Positions 404-45,623 of a stretch of DNA of 64,000 bases are shown here, one piece after another. This stretch comes from CAVYHJ01 sp963768165 [NCBI: uncultured bacterium]. GTDB lineage: Bacteria > UBP4 > UBA4092. Positions within the stretch are counted from its first letter, which is position 1. Each line of letters opens with the position of its first letter. Both the position numbers and the translations under genes were made by a program. Below the pieces are notes generated by a model that worked only from the letters and a program-made list of their open reading frames with translations, had not been told where the DNA came from and ran no database searches. The DNA lies in assembly GCA_963768165.1 (NCBI GenBank), contig CAVYHJ010000003.1:310001-374000 (forward strand), in the 5' to 3' direction.

Positions 404-721
404 TTTCCTAACCTCCTCAACTAATATTTATTTCTTTAGAAACGAGTTAATAATTTAAGAACTAGAATTGTGATTAATAATTCCAAAAGACTAAAATTAG
501 GTTTTAAATTAGATATTCCGTTTTTATGAATAGGTATGGATTGCATTTTATTTTCCTTATATTTAATCTTAAAGACCGTAAAATCACTTTTAGGCTTACA
601 AAAAAATGTTAAAAGCATGTAAAGTAAAATAGTAAGAATTTACCTAAAGACTTATAAATAAAGCAGTTAGTTGAATTTGGGAGGAAATAATAAACTTTTT
701 GAGTAAAAAATATTACAGTTG
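404..721. other. Intergenic region with ECF-type promoter
   Basis: AT-rich spacer between the TPR-like gene and the anti-sigma gene, both on the minus strand. It holds one recognisable signal, the bipartite promoter-like element at 571-604. The short open frames here have no ribosome binding site and no recognisable product. Confidence 0.6.
571..604 (-). promoter_or_regulatory. ECF-type promoter motif, class 1
   Basis: On the minus strand: TTTTTGTAAGCC, 16 bases, GTCTTT. The same layout occurs at 2922-2955, 3046-3079 and 45590-45623 with the same 16-base gap. It lies 168 bases before the ATG of the TPR-like gene. That a sigma factor reads it is inferred from conservation and position. Confidence 0.65.
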
Positions 722-2338
722 TTAGGAAGCAGATTTTAATACTGCCAGACGTAATTCTGCTTCCTGAGCATACCCACCCCGAGGATCTGTTCGTAAATAG
801 CTTTGCCAAGCAGATTCTTCTGCACCAGTATTTTTCAAGTCATGAGCAAGACGGGCGGTAATCGCATAGAAGATTCCGGGGTGCCGATTGGGGTTATACT
901 TCTCTGCTTTGGCAAGTTCCGCCTGTGCGGTTTGAAAATCTTTTTGTTGCCGTGCGATTTCCGCCAGCGCGGCATGCATGCGGGGGCCGCAATTGGGACA
1001 ACTTTCCGCGCCGGTTTCTTTGGCATGTTGGTACATTTCCCGCGCCTTAGTAAAGTTCCCCTGCAACATTGCCAACTCACCTAATAACACCCAACCCCCA
1101 TGATTTGAAGGTTGAAAGGTGGTAAGTTGTGTAGCGTATCGTTCGGCGTCTGCATATTGATGTAATTCAATCAGACATCGGGCTAACTGAAATAAACAGT
1201 AATATTCTTTAGGACTACGCTTGAGAGCCAGAATGTATCCACTAGTCGCTTGAGCATATTCACCCAGTGCCAAGTAACTTCTACCAATACAATAATAGGC
1301 GCTGAAGTATTTAGAATCAACTAGTACCGCTTTCCGGTCATTGGTAATAGCTTCTTCGTATCGTTGTTGATCATACAGTTGATTTCCTAGAGAGATATAT
1401 TTTTTTCGTAATTGTTCTCGCTCTTGATCGGATAGTTTGGTAAATTGGTCAAATTGTAATTTCCATTCTACAACGGAATTGACATCAACGAGTTGTGGCT
1501 CACCTAGCTGGGTATTGGCAGCAACTATCGCCTGGTATCCCGCCGGAATGATGACTTGGCCCAATGAATTTTCAAAAAAAACAGTATCTTGCAGGCATGT
1601 CACTACCGTGCGTAAAGCGGTATCCACCGCAATATTAAAGTCTGTACCATAGACTTCCACCCAACCGATCGGTGTAGAGACACGAAACTTTTTATCAGAA
1701 TATGCCGCAGAGACATAGATTTCACCCTGGTATAAAATTAATGTGGTAGATCGGTTCATGCATAGAGTCATTTTGGTGGAATTGTTCAACCATACCTGCC
1801 CTAATTTGCCCAGTTTTAAAGAAACCAAGGAATATTCATCCGTTTGAATTTGGTCGTTTCGTTGTAATTTGGTTGTTATATCAAGCTTGTCCCAGACAGG
1901 ATTATCTTGGGATTTTCGTAAAGATGGGGGACCCAGAAGTAGTCTCACTTGAAGGGAGCTTAACTTGGATGTATACCACTGATACCCGAGGACACCAACA
2001 AATACCAGTAAAGCAACGCTTGCCACAGTCAAAGCAATACGCAAAGGTCTAAAGGGAAAGAAACTAATTTGTTCTCGTTCTAAAGTGGTTTGTGTTCTTG
2101 GATAGCTAGAATATGGGGGGAGGGTATTAATCCGAGTTTCGATTCTTTCCCAAGTTCCGTCCAATAGTTTACATCCATCTTTAATTCTCAGGTTTAATTG
2201 TTGCTCTTGATTGAGAATATAATGGCATTTCTCACAATGATCTATATGTCTTTCCAAAAATACGCGGTCTTGGGCAGACAATACTCCTGCTAAGTATTGG
2301 TGTATCAACCGTCGCGTTCGCCAATGAATGAACTTCAT
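722..2338 (-). CDS. Membrane anti-sigma factor with FecR and TPR domains
   Basis: 538 residues. The N-terminus carries a zinc-binding anti-sigma (zf-HC2) motif: H5, H31, C35, C38 with His in place of the usual first Cys. One membrane segment follows at about 102-123. Residues about 133-275 resemble a FecR domain, and about 310-530 are TPR helices. The expected role is to hold the ECF sigma factor at the membrane until an extracytoplasmic signal arrives; the TPR tail would make it a scaffold as well. Its ATG overlaps the stop of the sigma gene by four bases (ATGA), so the two are translationally coupled. It is a paralogue, with the same domain order, of the protein at 42098-43747. Function as anti-sigma factor is inferred from domains and context. 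Confidence 0.82.
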   Translation of the reverse strand: MKFIHWRTRRLIHQYLAGVLSAQDRVFLERHIDHCEKCHYILNQEQQLNLRIKDGCKLLDGTWERIETRINTLPPYSSYPRTQTTLEREQISFFPFRPLRIALTVASVALLVFVGVLGYQWYTSKLSSLQVRLLLGPPSLRKSQDNPVWDKLDITTKLQRNDQIQTDEYSLVSLKLGKLGQVWLNNSTKMTLCMNRSTTLILYQGEIYVSAAYSDKKFRVSTPIGWVEVYGTDFNIAVDTALRTVVTCLQDTVFFENSLGQVIIPAGYQAIVAANTQLGEPQLVDVNSVVEWKLQFDQFTKLSDQEREQLRKKYISLGNQLYDQQRYEEAITNDRKAVLVDSKYFSAYYCIGRSYLALGEYAQATSGYILALKRSPKEYYCLFQLARCLIELHQYADAERYATQLTTFQPSNHGGWVLLGELAMLQGNFTKAREMYQHAKETGAESCPNCGPRMHAALAEIARQQKDFQTAQAELAKAEKYNPNRHPGIFYAITARLAHDLKNTGAEESAWQSYLRTDPRGGYAQEAELRLAVLKSAS

Positions 2339-2916
2339 AAAACACCCCCGAGGAGTTTGAGGATCTTTTTTCTGGCGCGGGATAATCGCACCTCGGCTGT
2401 ACCGATAGAGATATTCAATCGTTTAGCAATCTCATAACAGGTTAAGTCATCCGAAAAACTCAAAAGCGCTACAACCCTATACTTTTCAGAGAGCTGTGCA
2501 ATTACATTTAGCACTTTCTCCTGTTGTGCCCGATGATCGATTTCCGCACGTATATCCCTTTGCGATTGTTGCCGTTCCATGTCTATTATGGATTTTTCGG
2601 CATAGTCCACCATTCCAATTTTTTCTCTTTTCTTTTCCTTTAAGAAATCACTACACAGATTTCGGATAACGGTCTTTCCCCAACCACCGAATTTATCCGG
2701 ATCCCGGAGCGAAAGAAGATTTTGGTAGATTTTCATAACTCCTTGTTGCACAATCTCTTCGGCATCTGTGGAATTATGAACCCAGCGGTAGGCTTGAAAA
2801 TAAAATTGACTCCAGTACCGTTGTAACAGGGCTTTAAACGCTTCCTGCTCACCTGCTTGAGAACGTTGAACAAGTTCACGATCAGATACCTCCTGGTCAG
2901 AATTGTGACTATTCAT
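2335..2916 (-). CDS. ECF RNA polymerase sigma factor
   Basis: 193 residues with the two ECF domains: sigma-2 at about 26-95 (YWSQFYFQAYRWVHNSTDAE, then the FGGWGKTVIRN promoter-melting part) and sigma-4 at about 130-190 (CYEIAKRLNISIGTAEVRLS helix-turn-helix). It directs polymerase to a small regulon and is coupled to the anti-sigma gene that follows. The class 1 motif ends five bases before the ATG, which would put the transcription start on or next to the start codon and give a leaderless transcript. No other in-frame ATG, GTG or TTG lies close by; a GGAGGT at codons 8-10 serves no in-frame start. Confidence 0.88.
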   Translation of the reverse strand: MNSHNSDQEVSDRELVQRSQAGEQEAFKALLQRYWSQFYFQAYRWVHNSTDAEEIVQQGVMKIYQNLLSLRDPDKFGGWGKTVIRNLCSDFLKEKKREKIGMVDYAEKSIIDMERQQSQRDIRAEIDHRAQQEKVLNVIAQLSEKYRVVALLSFSDDLTCYEIAKRLNISIGTAEVRLSRARKKILKLLGGVL

Positions 2917-2921
2917 AGGTT

Positions 2922-2955
2922 TATGACTGAAAATAAGGCGATAGCCTTACATAAT
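2922..2955 (-). promoter_or_regulatory. ECF-type promoter motif, class 1 (autoregulatory site)
   Basis: On the minus strand: ATTATGTAAGGC, 16 bases, GTCATA, immediately before the sigma gene. It keeps the TGTAAGG core and the 16-base gap of the other three sites. ECF sigma factors commonly transcribe their own gene, which suits this position. Confidence 0.6.
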
Positions 2956-3045
2956 TACAAAATTTCTCTAGTACAACTTCACTCGTGTGGCTTTTTCAAA
3001 CGTGTTTCATTATATCTTGAATCGATTTTTAGGAAAAGGGAAGAA

Positions 3046-3079
3046 TTTTTGTAAGGGTTTAAACGATTTTTCAGTCTAA
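3046..3079 (+). promoter_or_regulatory. ECF-type promoter motif, class 1
   Basis: TTTTTGTAAGGG, 16 bases, GTCTAA, lying 107 bases before the ATG of the OB-fold gene. The upstream box is identical over 12 bases to the one at 45590 and the spacing is the same. Confidence 0.68.
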
Positions 3080-3185
3080 CGTATATTATAGTAATATATA
3101 TTCTATAAACTATAAACCCAAATTTGTTATTAGAAATCAGGTTTTAATAATAAGCAGTAGACAAAACTTTAAAAAGGAGAAAATC

Positions 3186-3884
3186 ATGAGATTTTTGAAA
3201 AGATTTTTTGCATGGGGCGCTTTTCTTACTATGGCTGTGTTTGGTTTGGCTCAAAATATCCCCACCATTAGTCCGAATGAGGTTCCTTCTTATGTGAATA
3301 AGACTGTAAGTGTTCAGGGGACCGTCATTCGTGTAGACCATATCAGTAAATTATATTTAATGCATTTTACTCAGGAAAAAGGGGGATTTACCGGCGTGAT
3401 CCCCGAAGCGAAATATATTGATATGGAGAGTGCAGGGATTGACATTAATGCCATTGAAGGCAAACGGGTAACCGTAACCGGACAGATTATTAAAGACCAA
3501 TATGGCATGGAAATGAATTTGACGGATCCAGCCAATCAAATGATATTACCGGAAGCCGCCACGGAAATCAAATATGCCTCCGGTCAGATTTCCGTAGATG
3601 AGGTTCCGAACCATGTCGGACAATATGCGACGGTCCAGGGAAAGGTGCTTACGGTGGATATATCCCGAACCGGGACCACCTATTTATTACGGCTAACCAA
3701 TCGGAAAAACGGGTTTACCGTGGTCATTTTTCCGCCCTTGGCAAGCATTTTTAAAAAAGCCAACATTGACCTAAAATCCTATGCCGGGAGAACCGTACGG
3801 GTGACGGGAAATATCAAATATTATGAACAATACGGGTATGAAATTATTTTGGATAAAATGGATAATCTTAAGGAAGTAAATTAG
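3186..3884 (+). CDS. Secreted protein with two tandem OB-fold-like domains
   Basis: 232 residues; AAAGGAG precedes the ATG. Residues 1-22 are a signal peptide ending AVFGLA. The mature protein is an internal duplication: residues about 27-120 and 132-230 both begin I-S-x-x-E-V-P-x-x-V and continue with a V-x-G-x-V strand, later V-x-V-T-G-x-I, as in periplasmic or nucleic-acid-type OB folds. No catalytic residues are apparent. It stands alone on the plus strand behind a class 1 ECF motif, so it is probably part of the envelope regulon of the divergent sigma factor. The ligand is unknown. Confidence 0.75.
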   Translation: MRFLKRFFAWGAFLTMAVFGLAQNIPTISPNEVPSYVNKTVSVQGTVIRVDHISKLYLMHFTQEKGGFTGVIPEAKYIDMESAGIDINAIEGKRVTVTGQIIKDQYGMEMNLTDPANQMILPEAATEIKYASGQISVDEVPNHVGQYATVQGKVLTVDISRTGTTYLLRLTNRKNGFTVVIFPPLASIFKKANIDLKSYAGRTVRVTGNIKYYEQYGYEIILDKMDNLKEVN

Positions 3885-4426
3885 TAACGCAAGGAGGGGA
3901 TACAGTTAACATATTTGTTCAACGATGGGATATTTTGAATACCAGTATCTTACTGGTTTATCTATTTCACTTCCAACATAAAGACCCGCACTCGTGATTA
4001 CCTTTTTATGGATAATTACTCGTGCATCAGGGGAAAATTCAGCGATTGCAATACCACGATCTCGGCTTAATTCTACATACAACCAGGTAGTCAATTGAAA
4101 CGTACTAAAATTCATTCTAGGGAGTCATTATTATGGGAAATACAGTAATTGAGCGTTATTTAATGGTTTTTGATAGATAACCACTAGATCGGATTATCGT
4201 TTGTTATATCGCAATCTTGGAACTCTTTTCCTCTAGAGACCGTATCCTAAGACTAAATTACTATACCCCACGTATAAGGGTGTTACCACTTTTGGTACTA
4301 CCCTTGATATAAATATTTGTTTTGAAGTCAATTTATTGGAATGATATTAAACAATTGAGATGGTAAAATAAAGTAATGAAAATGGGGACGAATTGCTAAG
4401 TTCCCCAAAATCAATAAAACCATTAT
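3885..4426. other. Gene-poor spacer between OB-fold gene and rpoD block
   Basis: Holds only one weak minus-strand open frame (3906-4115) and, at 4384-4406, a short hairpin with GGGGA arms. I see no promoter, terminator or RNA gene that I can support. The 3' half of the broken tRNA at 4427-4470 is not present here in either orientation. Confidence 0.5.
3906..4115 (-). CDS. Doubtful small hypothetical protein
   Basis: 69-residue open frame with ordinary amino acid composition, no signal peptide and no recognisable motif. No Shine-Dalgarno sequence precedes its ATG. It lies alone between the OB-fold gene and the tRNA fragment. It may be a remnant or chance. Confidence 0.2.
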   Translation of the reverse strand: MNFSTFQLTTWLYVELSRDRGIAIAEFSPDARVIIHKKVITSAGLYVGSEIDKPVRYWYSKYPIVEQIC

Positions 4427-4470: not shown

Positions 4471-4499
4471 TATTTTACAAAAGAATGAATAGAATTATA

Positions 4500-11304: not shown

Positions 11305-12162
11305 TCAGCCCTTGTGACAAGAATGATTTTCTGACATAGAAATCATTTTGGGGGTAATTAATTTGTTTAATTCCTGCTCGGGTAAATCTGAAGTAGCGGT
11401 ATAAATCAAATTATTATTTTTCCAAATTAATACATTGTTTTTGTAATACGTTCCCAAATAATAAGATTGACCATTCACCGACTTGGCAACGGCTTTGGGA
11501 AATTTTATATCCATAGCACTAATCATTTCCAACGAAACCAAATGCCCGGCGTGTCTTAAGGAAAGATAGATACTGGGCTTTCCCGCCAACTCCCCAAACC
11601 GGCAACCGGATATACTGAAAGATTGGGTATCAAAATTAGGAACTACCATCGTAAATTTCCGTTGATGAGAAGCGTTAACTTTTTGAATCAAAGTCTTGGG
11701 GTCCGAGTCTGTATAGTTCATGGTATATTTCCCGTGTTTGTCCAAGTCATAACTATTGGAGGCACTTTTACAAACCCACCATTGGGCAACATCTGTAACC
11801 GGAGGTTGATAAATCCATGTCATGTAAGCAAAGTACACCACCACAAGGCTGGCTATCGCCGTGGTTAAGGGTACGGGCCGGGTAATTGGTGTGCTTAGAA
11901 CATTTTTTATTCTTTGCCAGAATGATATTTGACTGGATTCCGATTGAATTTGTATAAGAATCTTATCGCGCAGACCGACAGGGGTGTTGACGGTAGGAAG
12001 TTTTGTCTTAACCAGTTTGCGGGTATATTGTTCCAAGGACACTTTTTCCTGACATACCATACAACTCTCGATATGGAGGGACACGTCCTCATGTTCCCGG
12101 GACTCCAGCCGGTTATCTATCCAGGCGCTGATTCTTTCGCTTATGTCTTTACAATTCAACAT
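11305..12162 (-). CDS. Membrane anti-sigma factor, zf-HC2 type
   Basis: 285 residues. The N-terminal zinc-binding anti-sigma domain has the full motif C4, H30, C34, C37. One membrane segment follows at about 98-118 (TTAIASLVVVYFAYMTWIY), then an extracytoplasmic domain of about 165 residues that I do not recognise and that carries no FecR or TPR features. It follows the sigma gene by 15 bases on the same strand and is its likely antagonist. It differs in architecture from the two FecR/TPR anti-sigma factors in this window. Confidence 0.82.
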   Translation of the reverse strand: MLNCKDISERISAWIDNRLESREHEDVSLHIESCMVCQEKVSLEQYTRKLVKTKLPTVNTPVGLRDKILIQIQSESSQISFWQRIKNVLSTPITRPVPLTTAIASLVVVYFAYMTWIYQPPVTDVAQWWVCKSASNSYDLDKHGKYTMNYTDSDPKTLIQKVNASHQRKFTMVVPNFDTQSFSISGCRFGELAGKPSIYLSLRHAGHLVSLEMISAMDIKFPKAVAKSVNGQSYYLGTYYKNNVLIWKNNNLIYTATSDLPEQELNKLITPKMISMSENHSCHKG

Positions 12163-12177: not shown

Positions 12178-12765
12178 TTATTCTTTCACATACCCCTGTT
12201 GTTTGCCATATTCCCACAAACTGATTTGGAGCATTTTCCGACCACGAGATATTCTAGACCGAACCGTACCTGTGGGACAATCCATGATTTGAGCAATTTC
12301 CTCATAAGTCATTTCTTGTAAATCACACAAAATTACCGCTGTCCGGAACTCTTCCGGTATTTTATCCAAAGCATCCATTATCTCATCGCCCATCATTTCA
12401 CCAAAAACATCCTTTTCAACGGCTCTTAATAATTCCCCCGGGTTACTTTTGGCCAATTGTTCAAAATAAGGTTCAATTTCCTCAAACGCCACCTGTTTGG
12501 GTTCTTTCATTTTCTTGCGATACCTATTAATAAAAGTATTTCTCAATATTTTCAACAACCAAGCACGAATATTGGTTCCTTGCTCAAATTGATGGAAGAA
12601 CCGGTAGGCGCGTAAATAGGTCTCCTGGACCAAATCTTCCGCATCTTCCGGCCTGCGGGTAAAACGTAACGCGGCATTATATAAAAGACCCAAATGGGGC
12701 AAGGCTTGTTCTTCAAATAGCTGTTTTTGTTCTGGATTTTGACCCTTATCAACTGAAGATGCCAT
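12178..12765 (-). CDS. ECF sigma factor, SigE/RpoE-like
   Basis: Sigma-2 at about 10-85 ([20 protein letters not shown], then [18 protein letters not shown]) and sigma-4 at about 130-185 ([20 protein letters not shown], then [14 protein letters not shown]). These are close to the SigE/RpoE group. ATG 12765 leaves a normal N-terminus of about 15 residues before sigma-2; the same frame can begin at 12822 but would add 19 atypical residues, and neither start has a clear ribosome binding site. It forms an operon with the zf-HC2 anti-sigma gene. Confidence 0.9.
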
Positions 12766-12884
12766 TGCCAGCAGAGGCAACCCAATATTATGCAATATTA
12801 TGTTATAGAAGGACATATTCATTAAACAAAAGTAAATTGTATTCCAGTTTCCTTAGAAAAGGCAAGTTTATTGTTATCAATGAA

Positions 12885-12908
12885 GCAAGTTTCAGGTTTC
12901 AAGTTAAA
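12885..12908. repeat. Dispersed GTTTCAAG-type repeat
   Basis: GCAAGTTTCAGGTTTCAAGT followed by TAAA; shares the AAGTTTCAGGTTTCAAGTTA core with the copy at 8088-8114. Confidence 0.7.
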
Positions 12909-13049
12909 AGGAAAGAGGATAAAGAATTTAGGGGTTGGGGTTAAACAAAGAACGCCCAAGGTTGAAACCGTGGGCTATCCATTTCATGGAATCTCTCATC
13001 GTTTCTCCCGCTGCTGGGAGAATGTAGTCGTAGGGGGGAATTCAGTGTT

Positions 13050-13083
13050 CCCCTCACCCCAGCCATCTCCCAAAGGGAGAGGG
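13050..13083. repeat. REP-like palindromic repeat, copy 1
   Basis: CCCCTCACCCCAGCC followed by ATCTCCC AAA GGGAGAGGG. The last part forms a hairpin. The upstream flank GGGGAA..CAGTGTT is shared with copy 2, so the repeated unit is about 50-55 bases. Confidence 0.75.
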
Positions 13084-13197
13084 AAATGTTTGTGTTGGGG
13101 CTTGAGGCATCAAGCCTGTAAGTTTGTCATTACTAATGAATATGGCAATCTCGTTTTAAGAGTTGTTATTTCCGACAACGAGGGGAAGCCAGTGTTA

Positions 13198-13230
13198 CCC
13201 TCACCCCAACCCTCTCCCAAAGGGAGAGGG
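13198..13230. repeat. REP-like palindromic repeat, copy 2
   Basis: CCCTCACCCCAACC followed by CTCTCCC AAA GGGAGAGGG, with the same upstream flank as copy 1. The type is widespread in bacterial genomes. Confidence 0.75.
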
Positions 13231-13417
13231 AGAAGAAACCGACTAAATTAATATATCCATAGTTTGAAGTTTAAAGTGATATACCCATAAAGGGTTACAC
13301 TACGCGTAGTGTAGGGATTTCTTCCCGTGGGGATGGGATTTTAGATGAAAGATTTCATCCTTTGCTCCGCTCAAGGACATGGATTTAAGATTTAAAAGAG
13401 AATTACTTGGTTAGAAG

Positions 13418-13456
13418 GCGTCGGGAAATCCATAAAGAACATTTCATTCCCGACGC
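13418..13456. repeat. GCGTCGGGAA inverted repeat, copy 1
   Basis: GCGTCGGGAA and its exact complement TTCCCGACGC separated by 19 bases. A second copy lies at 18983-19015, and an isolated half (CGTCGGGAA) lies near 13533. Confidence 0.7.
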
Positions 13457-13542
13457 ATGAAAGTCTTCTGGGTTGTCATTCTTGAGGGAGTGTTTTTTAC
13501 GACCGAAGAATCTCTCGGGAAATCAAGCAATACGTCGGGAAA

Positions 13543-14516: not shown

Positions 14517-17500
14517 CTATTTTATTGGCCACCCACCGTGAGAATCAATCACTTTATCAATTTCTGCCATGAGGCGAATGGTTTCGGATAAAACAGAGAC
14601 GATTTGTTGGTAATGGGAGATGTCGTCATAGGAGAGTTGTCTGCCTTTGCGGTCTTTGAGCCATTTCTGGCAGACTTGGTATCCACCGATATGGAAGTTC
14701 CAAATTTCAAGGGTAACGCCCTCAAAGTATTGGTTTTTGTTAATCCAGACTCTGCCTTTTTTAGCACCTTGTCCTAGTTCGGTGTAGCGGACATTTTCTA
14801 TAGTATGGTCTCCGTCTATAGGATAAGAGGTTATCGAAGTGCCTTGTTTTTCCATTAAATGCAGACCAACCAATTCATTTCCTAAATCACACAATTCCCT
14901 GAACAGTTTAGGATTAGAGGTTAAGGGCAATCGAGGGAAATCTATTTTTAGGAATTCGGCATAGCGTTTTCGATAGGTCGAGGAATGAAAGACAGCATAC
15001 ATATAATTGAATACATCTTCGGGTCCAAAGGTTAGGCGGGTCGCAGACCCGCCCCTACTGAGATTGCCTTTGCCATCAGGGATAAATGTCATTTTTAGTT
15101 GTTGGGAAAAATCCTTAATAAATTCAAGAGATAGATTTGGTTTTCGTTTTCCTGATCCCGTTTTTCCATAAAGGTCGTCTTTTTCAGTATCAGAATAAAG
15201 GTAGAGAGGAAAAATCGTTGCGTTATCAAGTGATGAAATAATACTCTTATCTGTAACAAATCTTGAAACAAAAAACATATAAGTTCTTTTGTCACGACTA
15301 TTACGAACTGTAATCAATCCAAGATTTTTCTGTAATAAGTTATCAAGAACATTATGCCGCGGCCAAGTTGCCAAATTTGAGGAATAATAAATCCATCTAA
15401 TATCGAATGGTCGATATTGGTATTCAACTACTTTTTTATCCTTAATATCATCTTTTTTAATAGCTATTCGAGCTTCAGATAGTTTCCAGTCTCTTTTATC
15501 ATCCAAATTGTAATCTTGTAGTATCTCTCCATCAGTTTTATTTGAACAAAGCACACTTAACCTTTGGAGTATTTCCTTACTATTAAAACCTACAGCAAAA
15601 TGATCTCTAGAAGTCTCAACCCCGAGTGAATTAACCAATATGAACTCTGAAATCTTCTTAAAACTTTCGTATTCCTTTTGTCCATCAATATTATACGGAG
15701 TGAAAAAATAGAACTTTTTTGTAGGATTTAATTTTGTCCAAGTAGTTGTGGCAACATTGTCCTCATCTAATAAAATGTATTTCTTTTCACGAAGCCCCCA
15801 GAGGTTGGCGTGTTTAATGGTTTTTTGTAGGTGTCCAGCGCGCTGGACACCTACAGGTTTTTTGACGAAGATACCAATGGCAACACCTTGTTGAATATCA
15901 AAAACATTTTCATCTTTAGAACCATCGGGACATTTTTCTTTCTTTTTACTACTACCATGCAAATCTAAGATATAAATATCGTCAAAGGTTTCAAGAAGGC
16001 TTTCTCGCATACGTCTATGGGTTATACCGTCCAAATAAGTATTATTTGATATAAATGCTAAGATTCCATATCCCGTTTCATTAATGCGCCATTGAGCAAA
16101 ACGGAAAAACTTAATAAAATCATCGTCTAGATTGAGCTTTCTTTCATTTAAATCTTTCTTATAATCATCAATTAAATTGGTTATCCAGTCACCTTTATTT
16201 TGAGAACTAACGGAATAGGGTGGATTACCTAAAACAACCATAACAGGAACATCTTTTTTAATATTACTTGCTTCATTGGCTTCTTCCGCAAGCCATTGCG
16301 CAAAAAGCGGTAACCCTGTTAATTCATAGGCTTCTTCCAAAGTATTGGTAAGATAAACTCTTAAGCGTTCCTTTTCTTTAAAATCGTATTTCATTTCTGC
16401 CAGTTGGAGACCGAGTTTCATGTGAGCGACAGCATAGGGTGCCATGAGTAATTCAAACCCGAAAAGACGGGGTAGAAGGTCTTGGGAGACGTAGGATTTC
16501 CAAGCACCTTTTTGACCTTTAGCGAGTAGATGGTCATAGATATGGTCAACGACGCCATGGAGGAATGTACCCGTGCCAGTGGCGGGGTCGAGAATCAGGA
16601 CTTTGTGGACATCGGTAGTGCCTTTGCCATCGGGATTATTCATTTTGATTTTAGAAGAATCCGCCAACCCATCTTTTAGACCGAAATCGGTTTTGAGAAT
16701 ATGGTCAACACTGCGAACGATATAAGAGACCACGGGTTCAGGGGTGTAATAAACTCCACGGGATTCCCGCATTTTGGGGTCATAGGCGGAAAGGAAGGTT
16801 TCATAGAAATGTACAACAGGGTCTTCCCTACGGGTGCGTTTGCCAAAGTCTGCGAGAATCTCATCAATCTTGGCACGATTGAGAAGGTGAATTAAATCTT
16901 CAACAATCCAAAGGATATGTTCATCCAAGTCCACTCCGGCGATGTGGTCAAACATTTTACGCAAGAATGGATTGGTTTTGGGTAAATCATAAGCGGCATC
17001 TTTGCGTGTAAATAGTTCCCCCGGTTTGGCATTACATTTAGCGGCAAAGAGACCATAGCATATTGTTTGGGCATACATATCAGCGAATTGGTCAGGGGTG
17101 AGGTCATGAAGAAGAACCTTACGAAAGCCGTCCAATTGTTCATGGAGAGTGCCTTTTTCTATTTCCTGTTTGAAAGTTAATTGGATACTATTGCGAATTA
17201 GCTTTGCCAACGATGCCATGCGTTGGGCTAAATCTTTAGGACTCATAATCGTCGGGACTTCATGAGTCAGGAAATTGGTAAGAAGTTCTAAAACCTGTTT
17301 TTCACCTTCGGGGTCAAGATTTAATTTACTTTTCTTAAGGTCAGATTTGAAACCTGACCCTACAAGAGAGGCGGTTAAGCGATGTTCGCCCAACACATAC
17401 CAGCGGAATTCGAGATAATCGGTTAGGATGAGATTGGGAAGACCGTCCCGATAGCGTTGGAGTTGTTCACTATCTTCCCATTCATCGAGGGATTCACCGA

Positions 17501-17726
17501 TTTTCTTGGTCTCCATATAACCGAGAGGGATGTCTCGTTTAGTGATAATAAAATCCGGTGCACCGCACTCGCTCCATTTGGGTTCATTGGTAGCTGTGAT
17601 GCCTTTTTCCAATGATTCAATGAGTTTTTTAAGAGCAGGGCGATGGGTATGTTCGGTAGCGTTCCCCTCTTTCAGGGCTTTGGTGATTTCTGAAATATAT
17701 GTTTGTAATGGAGTATTAATTAGCAT
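14517..17726 (-). CDS. Type ISP/IIG-like restriction-modification enzyme
   Basis: 1069 residues; AGGGG precedes the ATG. Residues about 40-130 carry a nuclease motif (APDFII, then GYMETKK, i.e. D-x(n)-E-x-K). A helical connector follows, then an N6-adenine methyltransferase with motif I DPATGTGTFLHG (about 375) and motif IV NPPY (about 510). The C-terminal half resembles the LlaBIII-type specificity domain. No helicase motifs are present, so cleavage would not be powered by translocation as in LlaBIII; it is probably a single-chain enzyme that methylates and cuts. Three palindromic elements lie inside the coding sequence without breaking the frame (15035-15060, 15826-15855, 17340-17366). It is followed by a nuclease-like gene, forming a defence island flanked by repeats. 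Confidence 0.85.
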   Translation of the reverse strand: MLINTPLQTYISEITKALKEGNATEHTHRPALKKLIESLEKGITATNEPKWSECGAPDFIITKRDIPLGYMETKKIGESLDEWEDSEQLQRYRDGLPNLILTDYLEFRWYVLGEHRLTASLVGSGFKSDLKKSKLNLDPEGEKQVLELLTNFLTHEVPTIMSPKDLAQRMASLAKLIRNSIQLTFKQEIEKGTLHEQLDGFRKVLLHDLTPDQFADMYAQTICYGLFAAKCNAKPGELFTRKDAAYDLPKTNPFLRKMFDHIAGVDLDEHILWIVEDLIHLLNRAKIDEILADFGKRTRREDPVVHFYETFLSAYDPKMRESRGVYYTPEPVVSYIVRSVDHILKTDFGLKDGLADSSKIKMNNPDGKGTTDVHKVLILDPATGTGTFLHGVVDHIYDHLLAKGQKGAWKSYVSQDLLPRLFGFELLMAPYAVAHMKLGLQLAEMKYDFKEKERLRVYLTNTLEEAYELTGLPLFAQWLAEEANEASNIKKDVPVMVVLGNPPYSVSSQNKGDWITNLIDDYKKDLNERKLNLDDDFIKFFRFAQWRINETGYGILAFISNNTYLDGITHRRMRESLLETFDDIYILDLHGSSKKKEKCPDGSKDENVFDIQQGVAIGIFVKKPVGVQRAGHLQKTIKHANLWGLREKKYILLDEDNVATTTWTKLNPTKKFYFFTPYNIDGQKEYESFKKISEFILVNSLGVETSRDHFAVGFNSKEILQRLSVLCSNKTDGEILQDYNLDDKRDWKLSEARIAIKKDDIKDKKVVEYQYRPFDIRWIYYSSNLATWPRHNVLDNLLQKNLGLITVRNSRDKRTYMFFVSRFVTDKSIISSLDNATIFPLYLYSDTEKDDLYGKTGSGKRKPNLSLEFIKDFSQQLKMTFIPDGKGNLSRGGSATRLTFGPEDVFNYMYAVFHSSTYRKRYAEFLKIDFPRLPLTSNPKLFRELCDLGNELVGLHLMEKQGTSITSYPIDGDHTIENVRYTELGQGAKKGRVWINKNQYFEGVTLEIWNFHIGGYQVCQKWLKDRKGRQLSYDDISHYQQIVSVLSETIRLMAEIDKVIDSHGGWPIK
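15035..15060 (-). repeat. In-frame palindromic element, copy B
   Basis: On the minus strand CAGTAGG then GGCGGGTC TGC GACCCGCC. It encodes part of SRGGSATRLT in the restriction-modification protein. Like the other two copies it begins with GTAGG and then forms a hairpin. Confidence 0.7.
15826..15855 (-). repeat. In-frame palindromic element, copy C
   Basis: A perfect 30-base palindrome with half-site TGTAGGTGTCCAGCG. It encodes PVGVQRAGHLQ in the restriction-modification protein and does not disturb the frame. Confidence 0.75.
17340..17366 (-). repeat. In-frame palindromic element, copy A
   Basis: On the minus strand TTGTAGG then GTCAGGTTT C AAATCTGAC C, a hairpin with one G/A mismatch. It encodes VGSGFKSDL in the restriction-modification protein. 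It shares the GTAGG lead with copies B and C although the stems differ. Confidence 0.68.
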
Positions 17727-35067: not shown

Positions 35068-35421
35068 TCATAATCCAAGGCGACGAACCTCTTCTTCATT
35101 AAAACCAAAAAAGTGCGCCACTTCATGGAGTAGAGTTTTCCGGATTTGTAGTTTGACTTGTTCATCATTTTGGCAATATTTCTCCATAACTTTTTGGAAT
35201 AAAATAATATGGTGGGGATGATACCCCCCTTCCCAACTTTGACGAGTTAAACTTACTCCACTAAAAACCCCGAATAATCCAAATTTACCATATTGTTTTA
35301 GAAGTTCTCCCTCAGGATAATCTTGGACCAGAATAACAACGTTTTCCATTTTCTCCCGAAACTCTTGCGGGATTGAGGCTACCGCTTCTTCAACTAATTT
35401 ATCAAATTCCTGCCGGGTCAT
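35068..35421 (-). CDS. Minimal zincin metallopeptidase family protein
   Basis: 117 residues. The C-terminus carries LLHEVAHFFGFNEEEVRRLG, an HExxH zinc motif, as in the predicted metallopeptidase family PF06262. The N-terminus MTRQEFDKLVEEAVASIPQE is also typical. Activity is unproven in most members. It is monocistronic or at the head of the Dabb-ABC run; a GTTTCAAG repeat lies directly upstream. Confidence 0.88.
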   Translation of the reverse strand: MTRQEFDKLVEEAVASIPQEFREKMENVVILVQDYPEGELLKQYGKFGLFGVFSGVSLTRQSWEGGYHPHHIILFQKVMEKYCQNDEQVKLQIRKTLLHEVAHFFGFNEEEVRRLGL

Positions 35422-35528: not shown

Positions 35529-36449
35529 ATGAAGAATTTAATACAAGAATTTCCCCGATGGATGTATTGGTACCCGTTTCGGATTGTTGCACAACGGATA
35601 CCGTTGCCATTGACTTATCCGATGGTAAAACTCACAGCTCGTGTTCTTTTCATATTGCCCATGGGAAAGTTCAAGAAAATCCATAACGGTTTTAAAAAAT
35701 CTTTCCCGGAAAAATCCGAAAAAGAACTCCGAAAATTGACCTATTTGACGTTTGAGAATTACTTATTAAACGCCTGCGAAGCGTTTTGGTATCCCAAACT
35801 CAATAAAGAGCGGATGCTAAGAATGGTCACCTATGAAGGGATGGAGAAGATTGATGCAGCGCTGAAAACGGGTAAAGGGGTAATCCTGGCGCATGGACAT
35901 TTTGGAAATGAGGAACTGTTGATGCCCGCCATTGGTTATATGGGATACACGGCGCATCAACTAGCCAGCCGTTGGGAACCGCCAAAACATGAAGGATTAT
36001 TAGAAGATATCGTGAACTATATCCGTGGGAAAGCGTTTGAAAAGAGAATTTCTTATCGAGAATCGTTTCCGGTAAATTTTCATTATGTGGATAAGAATTT
36101 ACGTCCGGCGATCCGATGTTTGAAAGAGAATGAGATATTGTTATTTGCCGTAGATGGCAGGGAAGGAACCAAATGGGAGATTATTACATTTTTAAATAGA
36201 AAGACGCGCTTTTCCCCCGGATTGGTCAATCTTGCTCGATTAACCGGTGCGGTTATTTTACCTGTTTTTTTAATTCGACTACCGGATTGCAACCATAAAT
36301 TAATTGTCCATGACCCTATTCTATATAAACCAGATGATGAATTATCGGTGTTCCGTGAATTTTTTGCCTTATTGGAAACGTATATCATAAAAAATCCAGA
36401 ACAATATGGTAAAGTCTATTTTATAGTAAACGACCTCTTTGTTGAATAA
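35529..36449 (+). CDS. LpxL/HtrB-like lysophospholipid acyltransferase
   Basis: 306 residues; AAGG seven bases before the ATG. The motif AHGHFGNEE (about 120) supplies the H-x4-E catalytic pair, and the later VDGREGTK (about 205) and TGAVILPVFLIR (about 245) blocks fit the family. Lipid A late acyltransferases and similar enzymes of this family transfer acyl chains at the inner membrane. It suggests an outer membrane, but no other lipid A gene is in this window, so the substrate is open. Confidence 0.85.
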   Translation: MKNLIQEFPRWMYWYPFRIVAQRIPLPLTYPMVKLTARVLFILPMGKFKKIHNGFKKSFPEKSEKELRKLTYLTFENYLLNACEAFWYPKLNKERMLRMVTYEGMEKIDAALKTGKGVILAHGHFGNEELLMPAIGYMGYTAHQLASRWEPPKHEGLLEDIVNYIRGKAFEKRISYRESFPVNFHYVDKNLRPAIRCLKENEILLFAVDGREGTKWEIITFLNRKTRFSPGLVNLARLTGAVILPVFLIRLPDCNHKLIVHDPILYKPDDELSVFREFFALLETYIIKNPEQYGKVYFIVNDLFVE

Positions 36450-38939: not shown

Positions 38940-38943
38940 CTTT

Positions 38944-40094: not shown

Positions 40095-40123
40095 ATATAA
40101 ACTTCCAGGAAATAACAGGTAAT

Positions 40124-41827
40124 TTATAACAATAACTTCCACGAAACCGGTAAGACCTGATCACTGACCGGAACCAATGCAATGAAATGTTCCATAGGAA
40201 TATTCGCAATCCGCGTATTCTCCGGATTATTTTCATTTACTTGAACCGTTGTATAGGTCGATCCTTGACAGTAAGCCGTCAACGAAAAATTGACCACCGT
40301 AGTCTGGTTGTCCAGAACGGTAGCCTGTTGTTTCGAGACATTATATCCACTGTCAATCGCAATCAAATACAGAGATCCTGTAGAAACACTGTAGATTGAA
40401 TAGTTTCCATTGGCATCCGTGGTTGCAAATAAGACATTATCTCGCGGTCCAAAACACCGGCTATCGAAATCTTCACGTATCGACACATTCACGCCTGCCA
40501 GCGGCAATCCCGTACTGGAATCGCTTACCGTACCGGTAATAGTTCCTACAGGTGGAGGAGGTGTTTCATTCAAAGCAAAGTTCGCGATGACCGTATCATT
40601 GGCTACGATAGTGACGGTTTGTACACTATATTCATAACCGGTGGCCGAAGTTTTTACGACCTGATTTCCGGAGGGAACCCCGTCAATTTCATAAGTACCT
40701 GTCGAATCGGTTTGTGCTTTCAGATAACCAAGATTTCCGTACCAGTTTTGTGCACCGATGGATACAAACACAAAGGCTCCAACAATCGGATTCCCTGTAC
40801 TGGCATCACTTACCGTACCGGTAATAGAACCACTGGTTGTAACTTGGGACTGTAAGGCAAAGTTCACAATTGTCGTATTGTTGCCTGTTACTGTGGCAGG
40901 TTGCGTTTGGGATTGATACCCATTAGCGGATGCGATAATATTGTAGTTTCCTGCGATTAAATCCGACAGCGTGTAAAATCCTGTACTATCTGTTTCGGCA
41001 TATTGACTGCCGCCATTGTTGCAATCGGGACCATCTCCATCTTCACTTTGTTGAGAGGACGAACTTGCGTAAACATAGGCCCCTGTTATTGGTAATCCTG
41101 TAGTCGCATCAGTGATCGTGCCTTGTACCGTACCCTTTGACGGCTGCACAATAGCTGTCAAGCTTAGATTGGCAATCGTTGTACTATTGGCAATGACACC
41201 GATACGTTGGTACCCCGTAAGGTAACCAGGTGCTTGAGCATAAACGAGCGTTGAACCTGCTGAAATTCCGGTTAAGAGATAGTTTCCATTGGAATCTGTG
41301 CTTGTCTTTGCCCAACCCCATCCATACGAATAATTGTTAGCTCCATTGGATGTCACACTGACTGAAGCTCCGGCAATTGGATTTCCGGTACTGGCATCGG
41401 TTACTGTACCACTAATATCGCCTTGTGCAGGTGGAGGAGGTGGTGGAGGCGGTGGCGGAACAGGGGTCAGTGATATATCCGCTTCAATAGTGTCATTTGC
41501 TACAACTTGAACGCCTTGATTGGAAAAGATATATCCATCTTTTTCTGTGTATATTTCCGTAGACCCTGCGGATACTCCATCCAAAATGTAATATCCCGTC
41601 GAATCCGTCTCTGTAAATCTTGGAGAATTTTCACCATCATAGGATCTGTTTCCCGCTACACTTACCGAAGCGCCTGCAATCGGATTTCCCGTGCTCACAT
41701 CGCTTACTATCCCTTGGATTGATCCCGTATTTTGGTTTACCGTACTCGGATTCTCAAAGGCACTTGCCCTACAAGTTAGTGCCATTATGATCATTACTAA
41801 CGTACTTGCATAAAAAACTCTCTTCAT
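40124..41827 (-). CDS. Secreted protein with five carboxypeptidase-regulatory-like repeats
   Basis: 567 residues from ATG 41827; AAAGGAGG eight bases before it decides this start over a GTG at 41836. Signal peptide of about 21 residues ending CRASA. Five repeats of about 95-105 residues follow, each opening with G-x-I-x-G-x-V-x-D-x-S-T-G-x-P-I-x-G-A and containing D-S-x-G-x-Y; these are beta-sandwich domains like CarboxypepD_reg. A run of ten Pro separates repeats 1 and 2. A unique tail of about 50 residues closes the protein. Probably a surface or extracellular adhesion or stalk protein. A class 2 ECF motif lies upstream (42022-42052). Confidence 0.85.
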   Translation of the reverse strand: MKRVFYASTLVMIIMALTCRASAFENPSTVNQNTGSIQGIVSDVSTGNPIAGASVSVAGNRSYDGENSPRFTETDSTGYYILDGVSAGSTEIYTEKDGYIFSNQGVQVVANDTIEADISLTPVPPPPPPPPPPAQGDISGTVTDASTGNPIAGASVSVTSNGANNYSYGWGWAKTSTDSNGNYLLTGISAGSTLVYAQAPGYLTGYQRIGVIANSTTIANLSLTAIVQPSKGTVQGTITDATTGLPITGAYVYASSSSQQSEDGDGPDCNNGGSQYAETDSTGFYTLSDLIAGNYNIIASANGYQSQTQPATVTGNNTTIVNFALQSQVTTSGSITGTVSDASTGNPIVGAFVFVSIGAQNWYGNLGYLKAQTDSTGTYEIDGVPSGNQVVKTSATGYEYSVQTVTIVANDTVIANFALNETPPPPVGTITGTVSDSSTGLPLAGVNVSIREDFDSRCFGPRDNVLFATTDANGNYSIYSVSTGSLYLIAIDSGYNVSKQQATVLDNQTTVVNFSLTAYCQGSTYTTVQVNENNPENTRIANIPMEHFIALVPVSDQVLPVSWKLLL

Positions 41828-42021: not shown

Positions 42022-42052
42022 AACAGAGACATTTCAAATGTATTATATTACA
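42022..42052 (-). promoter_or_regulatory. ECF-type promoter motif, class 2
   Basis: On the minus strand TGTAATATAA, 12 bases, GTCTCTGTT. The site at 44479-44509 has TGTAATAGAA, 12 bases, GTCTCTGTT. It lies 195 bases before the carboxypeptidase-regulatory-like gene. Confidence 0.55.
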
Positions 42053-42097
42053 CATGAATTCAAAGTTTTTATGACATTGGGAAACATTGTCCAATTT

Positions 42098-43747
42098 TTA
42101 AAGAGAATCCATTTGTTTAATCCGACTTCGTGCTTCTTCTGCAAAGGCGCCATGAGGAGTAAGTTTTAAATAATTCTCCCAAGCCGACTTTTCGCCCTTC
42201 AAATTCTTGGTATCCCGATAAATCCAGGCGGCTTCCGCATAAACTTGGCTGGGAATGGATTGTGCCTGAAGGGCTTTGGTGATTTCCATAATTGCTGTTT
42301 CATTATCTCCCCGCTGGTGAGCGATTTCTGCCCATCCACCATGGATTTGGGAATAATTTTCTTTGCTTATCTCTGCTCCCCAATTGGCTGCATTCTGAAA
42401 CGCCTGTTCTGCTTTATCCGGAGAATGTTGCAAGACATAGCAATCGCCCAACAATACCCATTCAGACTGATTAGTGGATAGTTTCTTTATTGTATGAAGA
42501 AGAGTGAATTCGGCATCTCTGTATTGTTTAAGTTCAATGAGACATTCGGCCAATTGATAGTTAAGGGCATATTCATTGGGATTTTTATCCATCATACGGA
42601 CATAGATAGCAGTTGCCATTGTATATTGACCTTGATCCCGGTACACCCTGCCAATTCCATAATATGGAATAAAATCGTTAGGATCCAATATAACCGCCAT
42701 TTGGTATAACTTTAACGCCTTATCATACGCTTTAACGTCAAAAAACATATCTCCCTGTTTGAGAAAAGATTGATGTAATTGTTTTCGTTCTTCATCTGAT
42801 AATAAACTCAACTGGTCAAATTGTGTTTTCCAATAAACCCTTTGGGTAAAATCAAACATAACGGGATCGCTGGGTTTGGTTTGCGGACTATTTTCTGATT
42901 CATATCCCGCCAAGATTTCTACTTTCCCCAATGGATTCTCAAAATAGACCGCGTGTTGGAAACAACTGACTTTGGTTTTTTGAGTGGCTTTATCCACGGC
43001 AATTTGAAATTGGGTTCCGTAGACGCGCACCATTCCACTTGGAGTTTTGACTTGGAAAGGTCCATGAGGTTGATTTAAGGCGATATAGACTTCCCCGCTG
43101 GTTATCTCAAACGCCGCATCCACATTGCTCATCACCCGAATCTGGGTGGATTGGTTTAACCATAGTTCACAATACTTCCCTAAATTAATTAATCCCCGGC
43201 CATATTCATCGGTACGGATGTTATCACCCGGATTCACCTGAGTTTTCACGCTCAACTTATGCCAATTGGGACTGGTATGATTTTGCAACCAAAGGCCTTC
43301 CCCCAAAGATTTTGCTACCTCTCCAGAAAATTGGGTTGTACCCACCAGGTTGGGAATAAAATGACCAATGGAAAAATACTCTCCCAGTAATAATAGAATC
43401 ACTACCACCACCAGCGATACCGCAATACTAGGCGGTATCTGCCAATTCCAAACTTGCCAATTCGGTGTGCGTTTAATTTTTTTCGGTCGCACAATCGCCT
43501 CTGAAGCGTAATAGTTTGGTAGTTCCTCCAAACGGGAACGGGTACGATTCATGGCTGAACCTAAAGGCGCGCAGGCAGAAAATACTTTTTTATTAAACAG
43601 ATCTTCCTGTTGAATCTGTCGCCGACATTTATAGCATTGTGATAAATGCTTTTCAAAGGACCACCGTTGATCTACCGGTAACGCGCCCATTAGATAAAGC
43701 ATAATCAGTTTTTTACTGTGTAAATGTATAAAAAAATCCTTGATCAT
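42098..43747 (-). CDS. Membrane anti-sigma factor with FecR and TPR domains
   Basis: 549 residues, same plan as the protein at 722-2338. Zinc-binding residues H8, H34, C38, C41. One membrane segment at about 105-130 (PPSIAVSLVVVVILLLLGEY). FecR-like domain at about 140-280, with FQVKTPSGMVRVYGTQFQIA matching FRVSTPIGWVEVYGTDFNIA of the paralogue. TPR helices to the end. Its start overlaps the sigma gene stop by four bases (ATGA). Expected to sequester the sigma factor at the membrane. The two modules clearly derive from one duplication. Confidence 0.82.
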   Translation of the reverse strand: MIKDFFIHLHSKKLIMLYLMGALPVDQRWSFEKHLSQCYKCRRQIQQEDLFNKKVFSACAPLGSAMNRTRSRLEELPNYYASEAIVRPKKIKRTPNWQVWNWQIPPSIAVSLVVVVILLLLGEYFSIGHFIPNLVGTTQFSGEVAKSLGEGLWLQNHTSPNWHKLSVKTQVNPGDNIRTDEYGRGLINLGKYCELWLNQSTQIRVMSNVDAAFEITSGEVYIALNQPHGPFQVKTPSGMVRVYGTQFQIAVDKATQKTKVSCFQHAVYFENPLGKVEILAGYESENSPQTKPSDPVMFDFTQRVYWKTQFDQLSLLSDEERKQLHQSFLKQGDMFFDVKAYDKALKLYQMAVILDPNDFIPYYGIGRVYRDQGQYTMATAIYVRMMDKNPNEYALNYQLAECLIELKQYRDAEFTLLHTIKKLSTNQSEWVLLGDCYVLQHSPDKAEQAFQNAANWGAEISKENYSQIHGGWAEIAHQRGDNETAIMEITKALQAQSIPSQVYAEAAWIYRDTKNLKGEKSAWENYLKLTPHGAFAEEARSRIKQMDSL

Positions 43748-44349
43748 ATCTGTCCGTCTAACATCCTTTGTAGCTTTTTCCTTGCTCTAAACAACCGGGT
43801 ATTCGCGGTCTGGACGGATAACCCCAGCCTTGTGGAGATTTCTGCTAATCCTATGTTTTCAATATAATAGTACCTTAAAATTTCTCGATAATTGTCCGGG
43901 GAAATTTCAGCAATGGCTTGTACAATGGTTTCAGCTTTCGCGCGATTGGTCACTTCTTCCATAGGTTTGTTTTGGGATTTGTCCTGGAGTTGTCTCAATA
44001 CTTCCATTTCTGAATATTCTTTCAGGGTTGCCGACTCGCTTTTTAAATCTCGAATGGCCCGCAGAGCTTTTCTATGAATGATAGTATAACCCCAAGAGCC
44101 AAACCGTTCCCGGTCTTTCAAAGTCTCTAATTCCTTATACATTATCATTAAGCCTTCTTGCACAATATCCTCCGCACGACCCGTGTCATGGACAATACCT
44201 AATGCCACTGAATAAAATATTACATAATAAGCTTCCACCAACGCTGTAAATGATCTACTATCTCCCTTTAACGTTCTTTCTACTAACTCTTTATCTAATC
44301 TACCCCGGTCTCTGTATTCCGACCGACCTTCCAATATTTCCTCGTCCAT
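43744..44349 (-). CDS. ECF RNA polymerase sigma factor
   Basis: 201 residues. Sigma-2 at about 34-100 (YYVIFYSVALGIVHDTGRAE, FGSWGYTIIHRKALRAIRD) and sigma-4 at about 140-198 (LAEISTRLGLSVQTANTRLF). The same subfamily as the protein at 2335-2916, sharing the FG-x-WG melting-region block. Translationally coupled to the FecR/TPR anti-sigma gene. A class 2 motif 130 bases upstream suggests autoregulation through a different promoter sequence from that of the paralogue. Confidence 0.88.
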   Translation of the reverse strand: MDEEILEGRSEYRDRGRLDKELVERTLKGDSRSFTALVEAYYVIFYSVALGIVHDTGRAEDIVQEGLMIMYKELETLKDRERFGSWGYTIIHRKALRAIRDLKSESATLKEYSEMEVLRQLQDKSQNKPMEEVTNRAKAETIVQAIAEISPDNYREILRYYYIENIGLAEISTRLGLSVQTANTRLFRARKKLQRMLDGQI

Positions 44350-44478
44350 ATATTACAGGCTGCTTGAACTCTTTTCGCTGCACTTTTTTAGCGTTGTATT
44401 TCTTAGAATACATTATATATTCTTTTCCCTTCAAGCATAACCTAAATATATCCATTGTCCACTTATTCTCTCCTGTAT

Positions 44479-44509
44479 AACAGAGACATCCCAACCCCTT
44501 TCTATTACA
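44479..44509 (-). promoter_or_regulatory. ECF-type promoter motif, class 2 (autoregulatory site)
   Basis: On the minus strand TGTAATAGAA, 12 bases, GTCTCTGTT, 130 bases before the sigma gene. Both boxes and the gap are shared with 42022-42052, while the 12-base spacers differ. Confidence 0.55.
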
Positions 44510-45533
44510 CTTTTATATACATTTTTCAGTTCTGTTGTGAAATTCAACTTCAAAATAAACTGGCATTACTAAACAATTAGGTACATTTGAATATTCCATT
44601 TTAGGAACTTTGGTGGACAAAAAAGTCTTGCCCAACGAACAATCACCCGTTTTCTAGTAAGCGTTTGTCCGGCGAAGACAAAACGAAAAGAGTACGTAAA
44701 AAGTGCAGTAAAAATATAGAAGATGTATCATTTTAGAATATCCCCAAAATCATAATCTTTATCCCTACAATTATCAAAATTCAGTTGGAACGCCGTTTAA
44801 TATGGGCTCGGTGAACCCAACTGGACAATGTCCCCATTGCTAACAAGTCCGTTTTGGTCGGCTCATAAAACTTATAACAAATCTACAGAATAAAAGAGGG
44901 ACTGCCCATACAACCTAACCGAATTTTCGTCACGCACATAGACATATTTACCTGGTATAACCCATGACAAACTGTTATACCGCAGCGCATGATACGGCTA
45001 TCTTTCGGAAGAGAACCTCCTGTGACAGCTTTATATCTCTAATAAGCAAAACGTACTCCCTCGGTAAACCAGTGTAGGAGACATTCCTAATTCGAAAGAA
45101 CCGATTTGGCTATGGAGTGCAACCTAAGAGGCTCAGACCCTCCTAGGTATACCTCCCGATATTTCTCCCTATAAAAACCAAAATTACCGGCTCCTCTTTT
45201 AAAACCTTCAAGAAACACTTAAAATTGACGTAGAAACCACAAACTCACCCAAAAGAGCCTTAAATATAGTCCCGAACCAAATCCCCACTTTTTTTCATTG
45301 GGAGATGGTACGGACTTGGTACGGTGATGGTACGGAGATAACCCATACCCAATTTTGAAACATTTTGAGCCCCTTAAATCGCAAATTTAGCTATGCCAAA
45401 TTGGCACACTCCACCTTGTCTTAATCTATTGAGCAACCATTTGTCCAGCAAAGAACAAAATATCCCTGAAGTAAAGAAATTACCTCACAAAATAAGAAAC
45501 ATTACTATGATTAAACTATCCTAAAAAAAGTAC

Positions 45534-45562
45534 TTGACAGAGGGTTCTTATTGGAATATTAT
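45534..45562 (+). promoter_or_regulatory. Sigma-70 promoter upstream of the secreted array
   Basis: TTGACA at 45534-45539, 17 bases, TATTAT at 45557-45562. Lies 28 bases before the class 1 ECF motif, giving two tandem promoters about 130-190 bases before the first gene of the array. Confidence 0.68.
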
Positions 45563-45589
45563 TTCCGGTGGATTAGAAAAAAGAAAATA

Positions 45590-45623
45590 TTTTTGTAAGG
45601 GGATGAACCTGTATTGAGTCTTA
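45590..45623 (+). promoter_or_regulatory. ECF-type promoter motif, class 1
   Basis: TTTTTGTAAGGG, 16 bases, GTCTTA. The upstream box is identical to that at 3046-3057. Located 136 bases before the 1594-residue beta-helix gene, 42.5 kb away from the sigma factor that carries the same motif. Confidence 0.68.

Follow-up and report, generated by a model that had tools for sequence, protein, structure and literature searches.

Two-box promoter-like sites probably read by an ECF sigma factor, and a variant motif in a paralogous module, in a 64-kb stretch from an uncultured bacterium

Which genes would an extracytoplasmic function (ECF) sigma factor read when a paralogous sigma factor is encoded a few tens of kilobases away? 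The question is raised by a 64,000-nt stretch (the window) of contig CAVYHJ010000003.1 from the uncultured bacterium CAVYHJ01 sp963768165 (GCA_963768165.1, positions 310,001 to 374,000). An initial annotation had noticed four copies of a bipartite motif, three around a sigma factor gene at 2335-2916 (ECF1) and one 42 kb away ahead of secreted-protein genes, and had proposed that they form the core regulon of this factor. We found a second sigma/anti-sigma pair (the ECF2 module) with a variant motif of its own. In our reading, sites 1-4 would be promoters of ECF1, the pair of variant sites would be the diverged promoters of a duplicated module, and the circuit would be autoregulated; we give this reading a probability of about two in three.

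Four sites of one motif

The four sites (motif 1) and the genes they precede are as follows.

571-604, minus: site 1, TTTTTGTAAGCC-N16-GTCTTT, ahead of the TPR gene, whose start codon lies at 403, and of a 36-aa open reading frame (ORF) at 436-546
2922-2955, minus: site 2, ATTATGTAAGGC-N16-GTCATA, preceding ECF1
3046-3079, plus: site 3, TTTTTGTAAGGG-N16-GTCTAA, preceding the OB-fold protein gene
45590-45623, plus: site 4, TTTTTGTAAGGG-N16-GTCTTA, preceding the secreted-protein gene array
1-403, minus: secreted-looking TPR protein, incomplete at the window edge (Pfam TPR_6, 1.6e-4, under the cut-off)
722-2338, minus: anti-sigma 1 (P0002, 538 aa), with zf-HC2 (H31-x3-C35-x2-C38), a hydrophobic stretch, FecR and TPRs
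2335-2916, minus: ECF1 sigma factor (P0001, 193 aa; Pfam Sigma70_r2 4.1e-11, Sigma70_r4_2 1.2e-12)
3186-3884, plus: secreted-looking protein with an OB-fold match (232 aa; Pfam PF01336 2.4e-8, PF13742 5.8e-7; signal-like N-terminus by eye)
45759-63591, plus: secreted-protein array of 18 kb, closely spaced and mostly secreted-looking genes with six beta-propeller-like copies

The letters and coordinates of all four sites were reproduced; every site is intergenic and aimed at a gene. The string TTTTTGTAAG occurs three times in the window, each time within a motif-1 site. The spacing that had been described as constant is so, with no match in the window to either TGTAAG-N17-GTC or TGTAAG-N19-GTC. 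The DNA separating ECF1 from its divergent neighbour holds one copy of the motif per direction, and a T-tract lies ahead of the −35 box in three of the four sites. The distance between the last base of GTCNNN and the start codon is 167, 5, 106 and 135 nt for sites 1, 2, 3 and 4, and Shine-Dalgarno-like sequences are found at the targets other than ECF1.

The labels given earlier to the two genes flanking sites 2 and 3 hold: the product of 2335-2916 has region 2 and region 4 matches only, as expected of an ECF sigma factor, with SigW as the nearest solved chain (5.6e-17), and Pfam agrees with the OB fold of the secreted protein after site 3, for which the structure model is poor (mean predicted local distance difference test score, pLDDT, 40.5).

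The 36-aa ORF on the minus strand between site 1 and the TPR gene has a Shine-Dalgarno-like sequence and contains FSLLELLITILVL, which we take to resemble the N-terminus of a type IV prepilin, but without the preceding glycine.

Enrichment of the motif

The pattern TGTAAG-N18-GTCWWW has four matches in the 64 kb (both strands) compared with 0.07 expected from dinucleotide shuffles, and none of 100 shuffles reached four; the comparison overstates the case, since the pattern was derived from the sites themselves. With a leave-one-out weight matrix, among 127,934 positions the held-out site was each time the best position outside the training set (ranks 4, 4, 4 and 1 when the three training sites are counted). 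With a matrix built from all four sites the weakest of them scored 23.5 and the next-best position 13.6.

A test anchored on ECF1 took 10+6 dyads from 2917-3185 and scored them on the best three other intergenic places, at seven gaps. The DNA upstream of a sigma gene is defensible as a prior anchor, since genes for ECF sigma factors are usually preceded by a promoter of their own. The real sites scored 84.0 (best of the seven gaps), and none of 300 shuffles, with a mean of 75.9, a standard deviation of 1.4 and a maximum of 80.8, reached this value.

A paralogous module with a variant motif

Regions of 300 nt upstream of the listed genes were scanned for TGTAAG, allowing one mismatch, followed by GTC at a spacing of 16-20. 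The scan returned three matches beyond the four sites. Two of these are of the form TGTAAT-N16-GTCTCT (motif 2); one stands ahead of ECF2 and the other ahead of the secreted-protein gene that follows anti-sigma 2.

40124-41827, minus: secreted-looking repeat protein, by eye carboxypeptidase-regulatory-like (ATG with Shine-Dalgarno sequence; partial NCBIfam matches only)
42022-42053, minus: motif-2 site A, GTGTAATA-N13-ATGTCTCTGTT, in the gap that separates anti-sigma 2 from the secreted-protein gene following it
42098-43747, minus: anti-sigma 2 (P0004, 549 aa), zf-HC2/FecR/TPR
43744-44349, minus: ECF2 sigma factor (P0003, 201 aa), Pfam region 2 and region 4 matches
44479-44510, minus: motif-2 site B, GTGTAATA-N13-ATGTCTCTGTT, 129 nt upstream of the ECF2 start codon

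The two modules are paralogous: ECF1 and ECF2 are 35% identical over 181 columns and the anti-sigmas 34% identical over 549 columns. Upstream regions were also compared pairwise, using the 24 (of the 33 genes given) that have at least 45 nt of intergenic DNA, with the array represented by its first gene. The motif-2 pair was the top-scoring pair, and with ECF2 as anchor one of 245 shuffles reached it. The looser pattern TGTAA-N16..20-GTC occurs 13 times in the window; its six intergenic occurrences are the six module sites, and the other seven lie within genes, two of them as copies inside the duplicated array. Intergenic DNA makes up 16% of the window (10,482/64,000, by the gene list of this analysis).

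Other candidates were set aside. The third extra match of the upstream scan, at gene 35068-35421, is dissimilar to the motif-2 pair. In the second-ranked pair of the pairwise comparison (35068-35421 and 35529-36449) a single divergent stretch matches its own opposite strand. A copy of TGTAAT-N16-GTCTCT with one mismatch, at 4235-4262 on the minus strand, was left uncounted; the next feature is an uncharacterised 69-aa ORF starting at 4115, about 120 nt on, and it is conceivable that a small gene or RNA there is under ECF2.

In the ECF2 leader (44350-44479, minus) an AGGAG can be seen by eye; after it, and ahead of the listed start, come a GTG and an ORF of six codons that may encode a leader peptide.

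Which sigma factor reads which site

Both modules are built on the same plan. On the minus strand module 1 has site 2, ECF1, anti-sigma 1, site 1 and the TPR protein, and on the plus strand site 3 and the OB-fold protein; module 2 has site B, ECF2, anti-sigma 2, site A and the repeat protein on the minus strand and, 1.24 kb away on the plus strand, site 4 and the array. Yet the divergent position of module 2 holds a motif-1 site, and it is for this reason that site 4 is assigned to ECF1 despite its ECF2 neighbour. The proposed link from the sigma factor to genes 42 kb away is supported in part: a motif-1 site is indeed there, but the earlier proposal had not reckoned with a second sigma/anti-sigma pair 1.24 kb from it. 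That module 2 has a variant motif of its own makes it more likely, not less, that site 4 belongs to ECF1. It would be quite improbable that ECF2 reads site 4 and ECF1 only sites 1-3: the site does lie 1.24 kb from the ECF2 start and divergent to it, but it shares TTTTTGTAAGGG-N16-GTCT with site 3 and has neither the motif-2 spacing nor GTCTCT.

A broader alternative is one shared regulon of six sites, in which ECF1 and ECF2 both read TGTAA-N17-19-GTC and the modules cross-talk. The two factors are paralogues, TGTAA and GTC are common to both motifs, and the motif-1 type of site 4 next to module 2 would fit as well. The motifs, however, differ consistently, with G versus T after TGTAA and 18 versus 16 nt from the hexamer to GTC, and GTCTCTGTT is confined to motif 2. 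Residues in the region-4 helix differ between ECF1 and ECF2 (by eye on the alignment), and ECF sigma factors are reported in PMC6411747 to demand a rigid spacer. We consider the shared regulon unlikely.

In the preferred reading, with separate sites for ECF1 and ECF2, ECF1 would be held by anti-sigma 1 in the membrane, with the zinc-finger domain inside and the FecR and TPR parts outside, and an envelope or extracellular signal would free it. Freed ECF1 would transcribe its own operon from site 2, as a leaderless mRNA, the OB-fold gene from site 3, the TPR gene from site 1 and, 42 kb off, the array from site 4, which has a sigma-70-type promoter besides. ECF2 would read TGTAAT-N16-GTCTCT before its own gene and before the secreted gene after anti-sigma 2. 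We infer that sites 1-4 would make up the core regulon of ECF1.

A more specific proposal, tentative and somewhat doubtful, is that the duplicated ECF/FecR-TPR modules have become insulated from each other by a 2-bp change in spacing and changes in flanking bases, the TGTAA and GTC cores being kept, while the array promoter either stayed with ECF1 or was recruited by it. The circuit is of a known kind, and its paralogous modules allow the divergence of promoters after a duplication to be tested. If the reading is true, it would provide a promoter code for the type of ECF sigma factor with FecR/TPR anti-sigmas, tie envelope sensing to a large array of secreted beta-propellers, and offer a natural comparison, side by side, of the ways in which duplicated sigma factors may avoid cross-talk.

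The array downstream of site 4

Two further features flank the array.

45534-45562, plus: sigma-70-like promoter TTGACA-17-TATTAT, 27 bases before site 4 (an 11/12 consensus match only)
63629-63669, plus: strong terminator-like hairpin of 19 pairs, after the array

The sigma-70-like promoter is the best of 64 promoter-like matches in 44300-64000, where shuffles give 47. With this promoter just ahead of site 4, the array may have two starts; it is possibly one long transcription unit. Five propeller-like members of the array are 46-76% identical to a sixth. The propeller structure model has low confidence (pLDDT 48.4), and 6-phosphogluconolactonases are among its best fold matches with TM-scores near 0.3, so that the propeller fold is only a hint. 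A beta-helix label had been attached to 45759-50543, for which we found no Pfam match. The genes at 53392-54849 and 57677-59146 encode identical first 286 residues, indicating a recent duplication.

Sigma and anti-sigma classes and known systems

At E<=0.001 both ECF1 and ECF2 match Pfam Sigma70_r2 and Sigma70_r4/r4_2, and ECF1 also matches Sigma70_ECF. Regions 2 and 4 are present and regions 1.1, 1.2 and 3 absent in both, which by predicted domain content places the two factors in group IV (ECF). In both modules the sigma gene and the downstream anti-sigma gene have the same orientation and overlap by 4 bases. Matches to zf-HC2 were obtained for both anti-sigmas (3.6e-7 for P0002 and 4.1e-5 for P0004), along with FecR and TPR matches; a hydrophobic stretch near residues 100-120, a candidate membrane-spanning helix, is visible by eye in both. 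The segments HIDHCEKC in P0002 and HLSQCYKC in P0004 agree with the Hx3Cx2C signature of class I anti-sigma domains (ASDI), so that both proteins are predicted members of this class, whose zinc signature is described in PMC7406223. Upstream of each sigma gene there is a candidate two-box site for positive autoregulation.

In these respects (regions 2 and 4 only, an overlapping anti-sigma gene downstream, Hx3Cx2C in both anti-sigmas, a two-box motif upstream of the sigma gene) the modules resemble the RsiW/SigW-like and E. coli RpoE/RseA-like systems. They differ in the presumed outer part, which is FecR plus TPR, in a −35 box with AAG or AAT, and in that the 64-kb window contains two paralogous copies whose boxes differ. 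Promoters of E. coli RpoE and of B. subtilis SigX, SigV and SigM have a GTCTAA-like −10, a TGTAA(C)-like −35 and a spacing near 16-18. The present sites are alike in the −10, the core of the −35 and the spacing, and differ in having AAG or AAT for AAC and, in three of the four motif-1 sites, the T-tract.

The FecR domain of the partner protein is shared with FecI/FecR and with the Leptospira pair LIC12757/LIC12756 as presented in PMC13118517; in contrast to these, the present anti-sigmas have zf-HC2 and TPRs and the sigma factor looks autoregulated. The same paper describes, for the Leptospira ECF, a FecR-like regulator that both inhibits and activates. FecR-type dual regulators require their N-terminal part for sigma activation and take their signal from a TonB-dependent receptor; the likeness of the present anti-sigmas to them is the FecR domain match. 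No TonB-receptor was among the matches listed for the 37 window proteins scanned.

Weighing the promoter reading

According to PMC8103513, ECF sigma factors are usually autoregulated, their promoters have AAC and CGT boxes, and their anti-sigma genes are adjacent; boxes of the AAC/CGT type also appear in PMC3817407, where ECF groups had their promoter motifs identified by the same logic of searching upstream DNA, the FecI-like groups being left out as not autoregulating. The form of the present sites, two boxes at a fixed spacing with GTC in the −10, fits ECF promoters as had been proposed. Neither motif, read as a predicted promoter, has the canonical AAC in the −35 or the CGT in the −10: the base preceding GTC is A, G or T in the sites, which leaves the −10 with GTC and no CGT. 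The missing AAC/CGT lowers the claim to a canonical promoter, not to an ECF-type one. One of the mapped Sinorhizobium meliloti promoters in PMC6180224 has TGTAAC.

Several observations tell against our reading. The −35 is TGTAAG in motif 1 and TGTAAT in motif 2, with AA but without the C usual in ECF promoters, and FecI-type ECF sigma factors are named as exceptions to autoregulation in PMC8103513 and PMC3817407. If site 2 is the ECF1 promoter, the mRNA must be leaderless: the ATG follows 5 nt after the site, is the first start codon past the in-frame stop, and none of the first 45 codons is an alternative ATG, GTG or TTG. The statistics are also less favourable when the ECF1 anchor is dropped. 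In a blind dyad search every intergenic place served as seed; the array (45759 onwards) was excluded, as was 12823-13542, the latter because a local direct duplication (~13050/13197) had dominated the first blind run. With 10 gaps tried on the real data the foursome ranked first at gaps 14-17 (jointly at 16). The 80 shuffles, all run at gap 18, had a mean of 80.4 and a maximum of 84.7, and 2 of them reached its best score, a figure that stands before correction for the 10 gaps. A hexamer repeated at least four times at a fixed distance before GTC turned up in 15 of 300 shuffles. Taken pairwise, the best module-1 pair (ECF1 and the OB gene) is unexceptional, being reached in 11 of 245 shuffles anchored on ECF1 and in 126 of 245 unanchored, and an unanchored pair as good as motif 2 was found in 7 of 245. 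The sequence statistics for motif 1 are therefore borderline alone and strong given the known habit of ECF genes.

These borderline results of the blind search, together with the leaderless ECF1 mRNA and the sigma-70-like promoter just upstream of site 4, could also be accommodated if the sites bound another regulator or were chance likenesses in AT-rich intergenic DNA. The anchored test and the leave-one-out ranks argue otherwise, as do the placement of the sites ahead of module and secreted-protein genes and the parallel second motif in the paralogous module. The boxes, moreover, are not palindromic; most dimeric repressor sites are. We regard this non-promoter reading as quite improbable.

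A strong AGGAGG lies at 2889-2894 (minus), within ECF1 codons 8-10, and the rest of the first 45 codons offers no in-frame ATG, GTG or TTG.

Searches for related modules and motifs

A literature search for TGTAAG plus GTC boxes with an ECF sigma factor gave no match, and searches by topic brought up no listing that describes an ECF module with a zf-HC2/FecR/TPR anti-sigma. Exact motif 1 was present in four stretches of a viral contig collection, near chance by a rough estimate from 18 fixed bases and the size of the collection.

Searches of genome contigs, plasmids, viral contigs (P0002 only) and 398 genomes yielded no full-length relative of the anti-sigmas. Genome contigs scanned with both anti-sigmas gave a sole, weak match of 39 residues. 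A profile of the anti-sigmas had matches at E<=1e-10 in 14 of 398 genomes from the phylum of this match, and the 14 places listed spanned no more than 202 of its 560 positions; as the genomes were chosen by the phylum of a weak match, this says little about the rarity of the module. Plasmid records had no match for P0002, 12 matches for P0004 (the best 8 of the 12 being short TPR or FecR stretches) and 321 for P0001 (the best 20 of the 321 at 28-34%). IS481 relatives were matched in 1478 plasmid records, the best 8 of the 1478 being about 30% identical and uninformative. Viral contigs had no match for P0002, the sigma pair or a propeller protein.

Elsewhere in the window

Scans of the window gave no Rfam family at the gathering score and no tRNA. 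The gene at 14517-17726 (minus) has Type ISP specificity domain and N6-methylase matches and is likely to encode a single-chain restriction-modification enzyme. The minus strand also encodes a third ECF/anti-sigma pair (sigma 12178-12822, anti-sigma 11305-12162), which NCBIfam assigns to the SigH/RsrA type. The direct duplication at ~13050 and 13197 lies upstream of the SigH-like gene, and GGAAAC-N19-GTT stands immediately ahead of the listed start codon of this gene, whose true start may therefore be further downstream.

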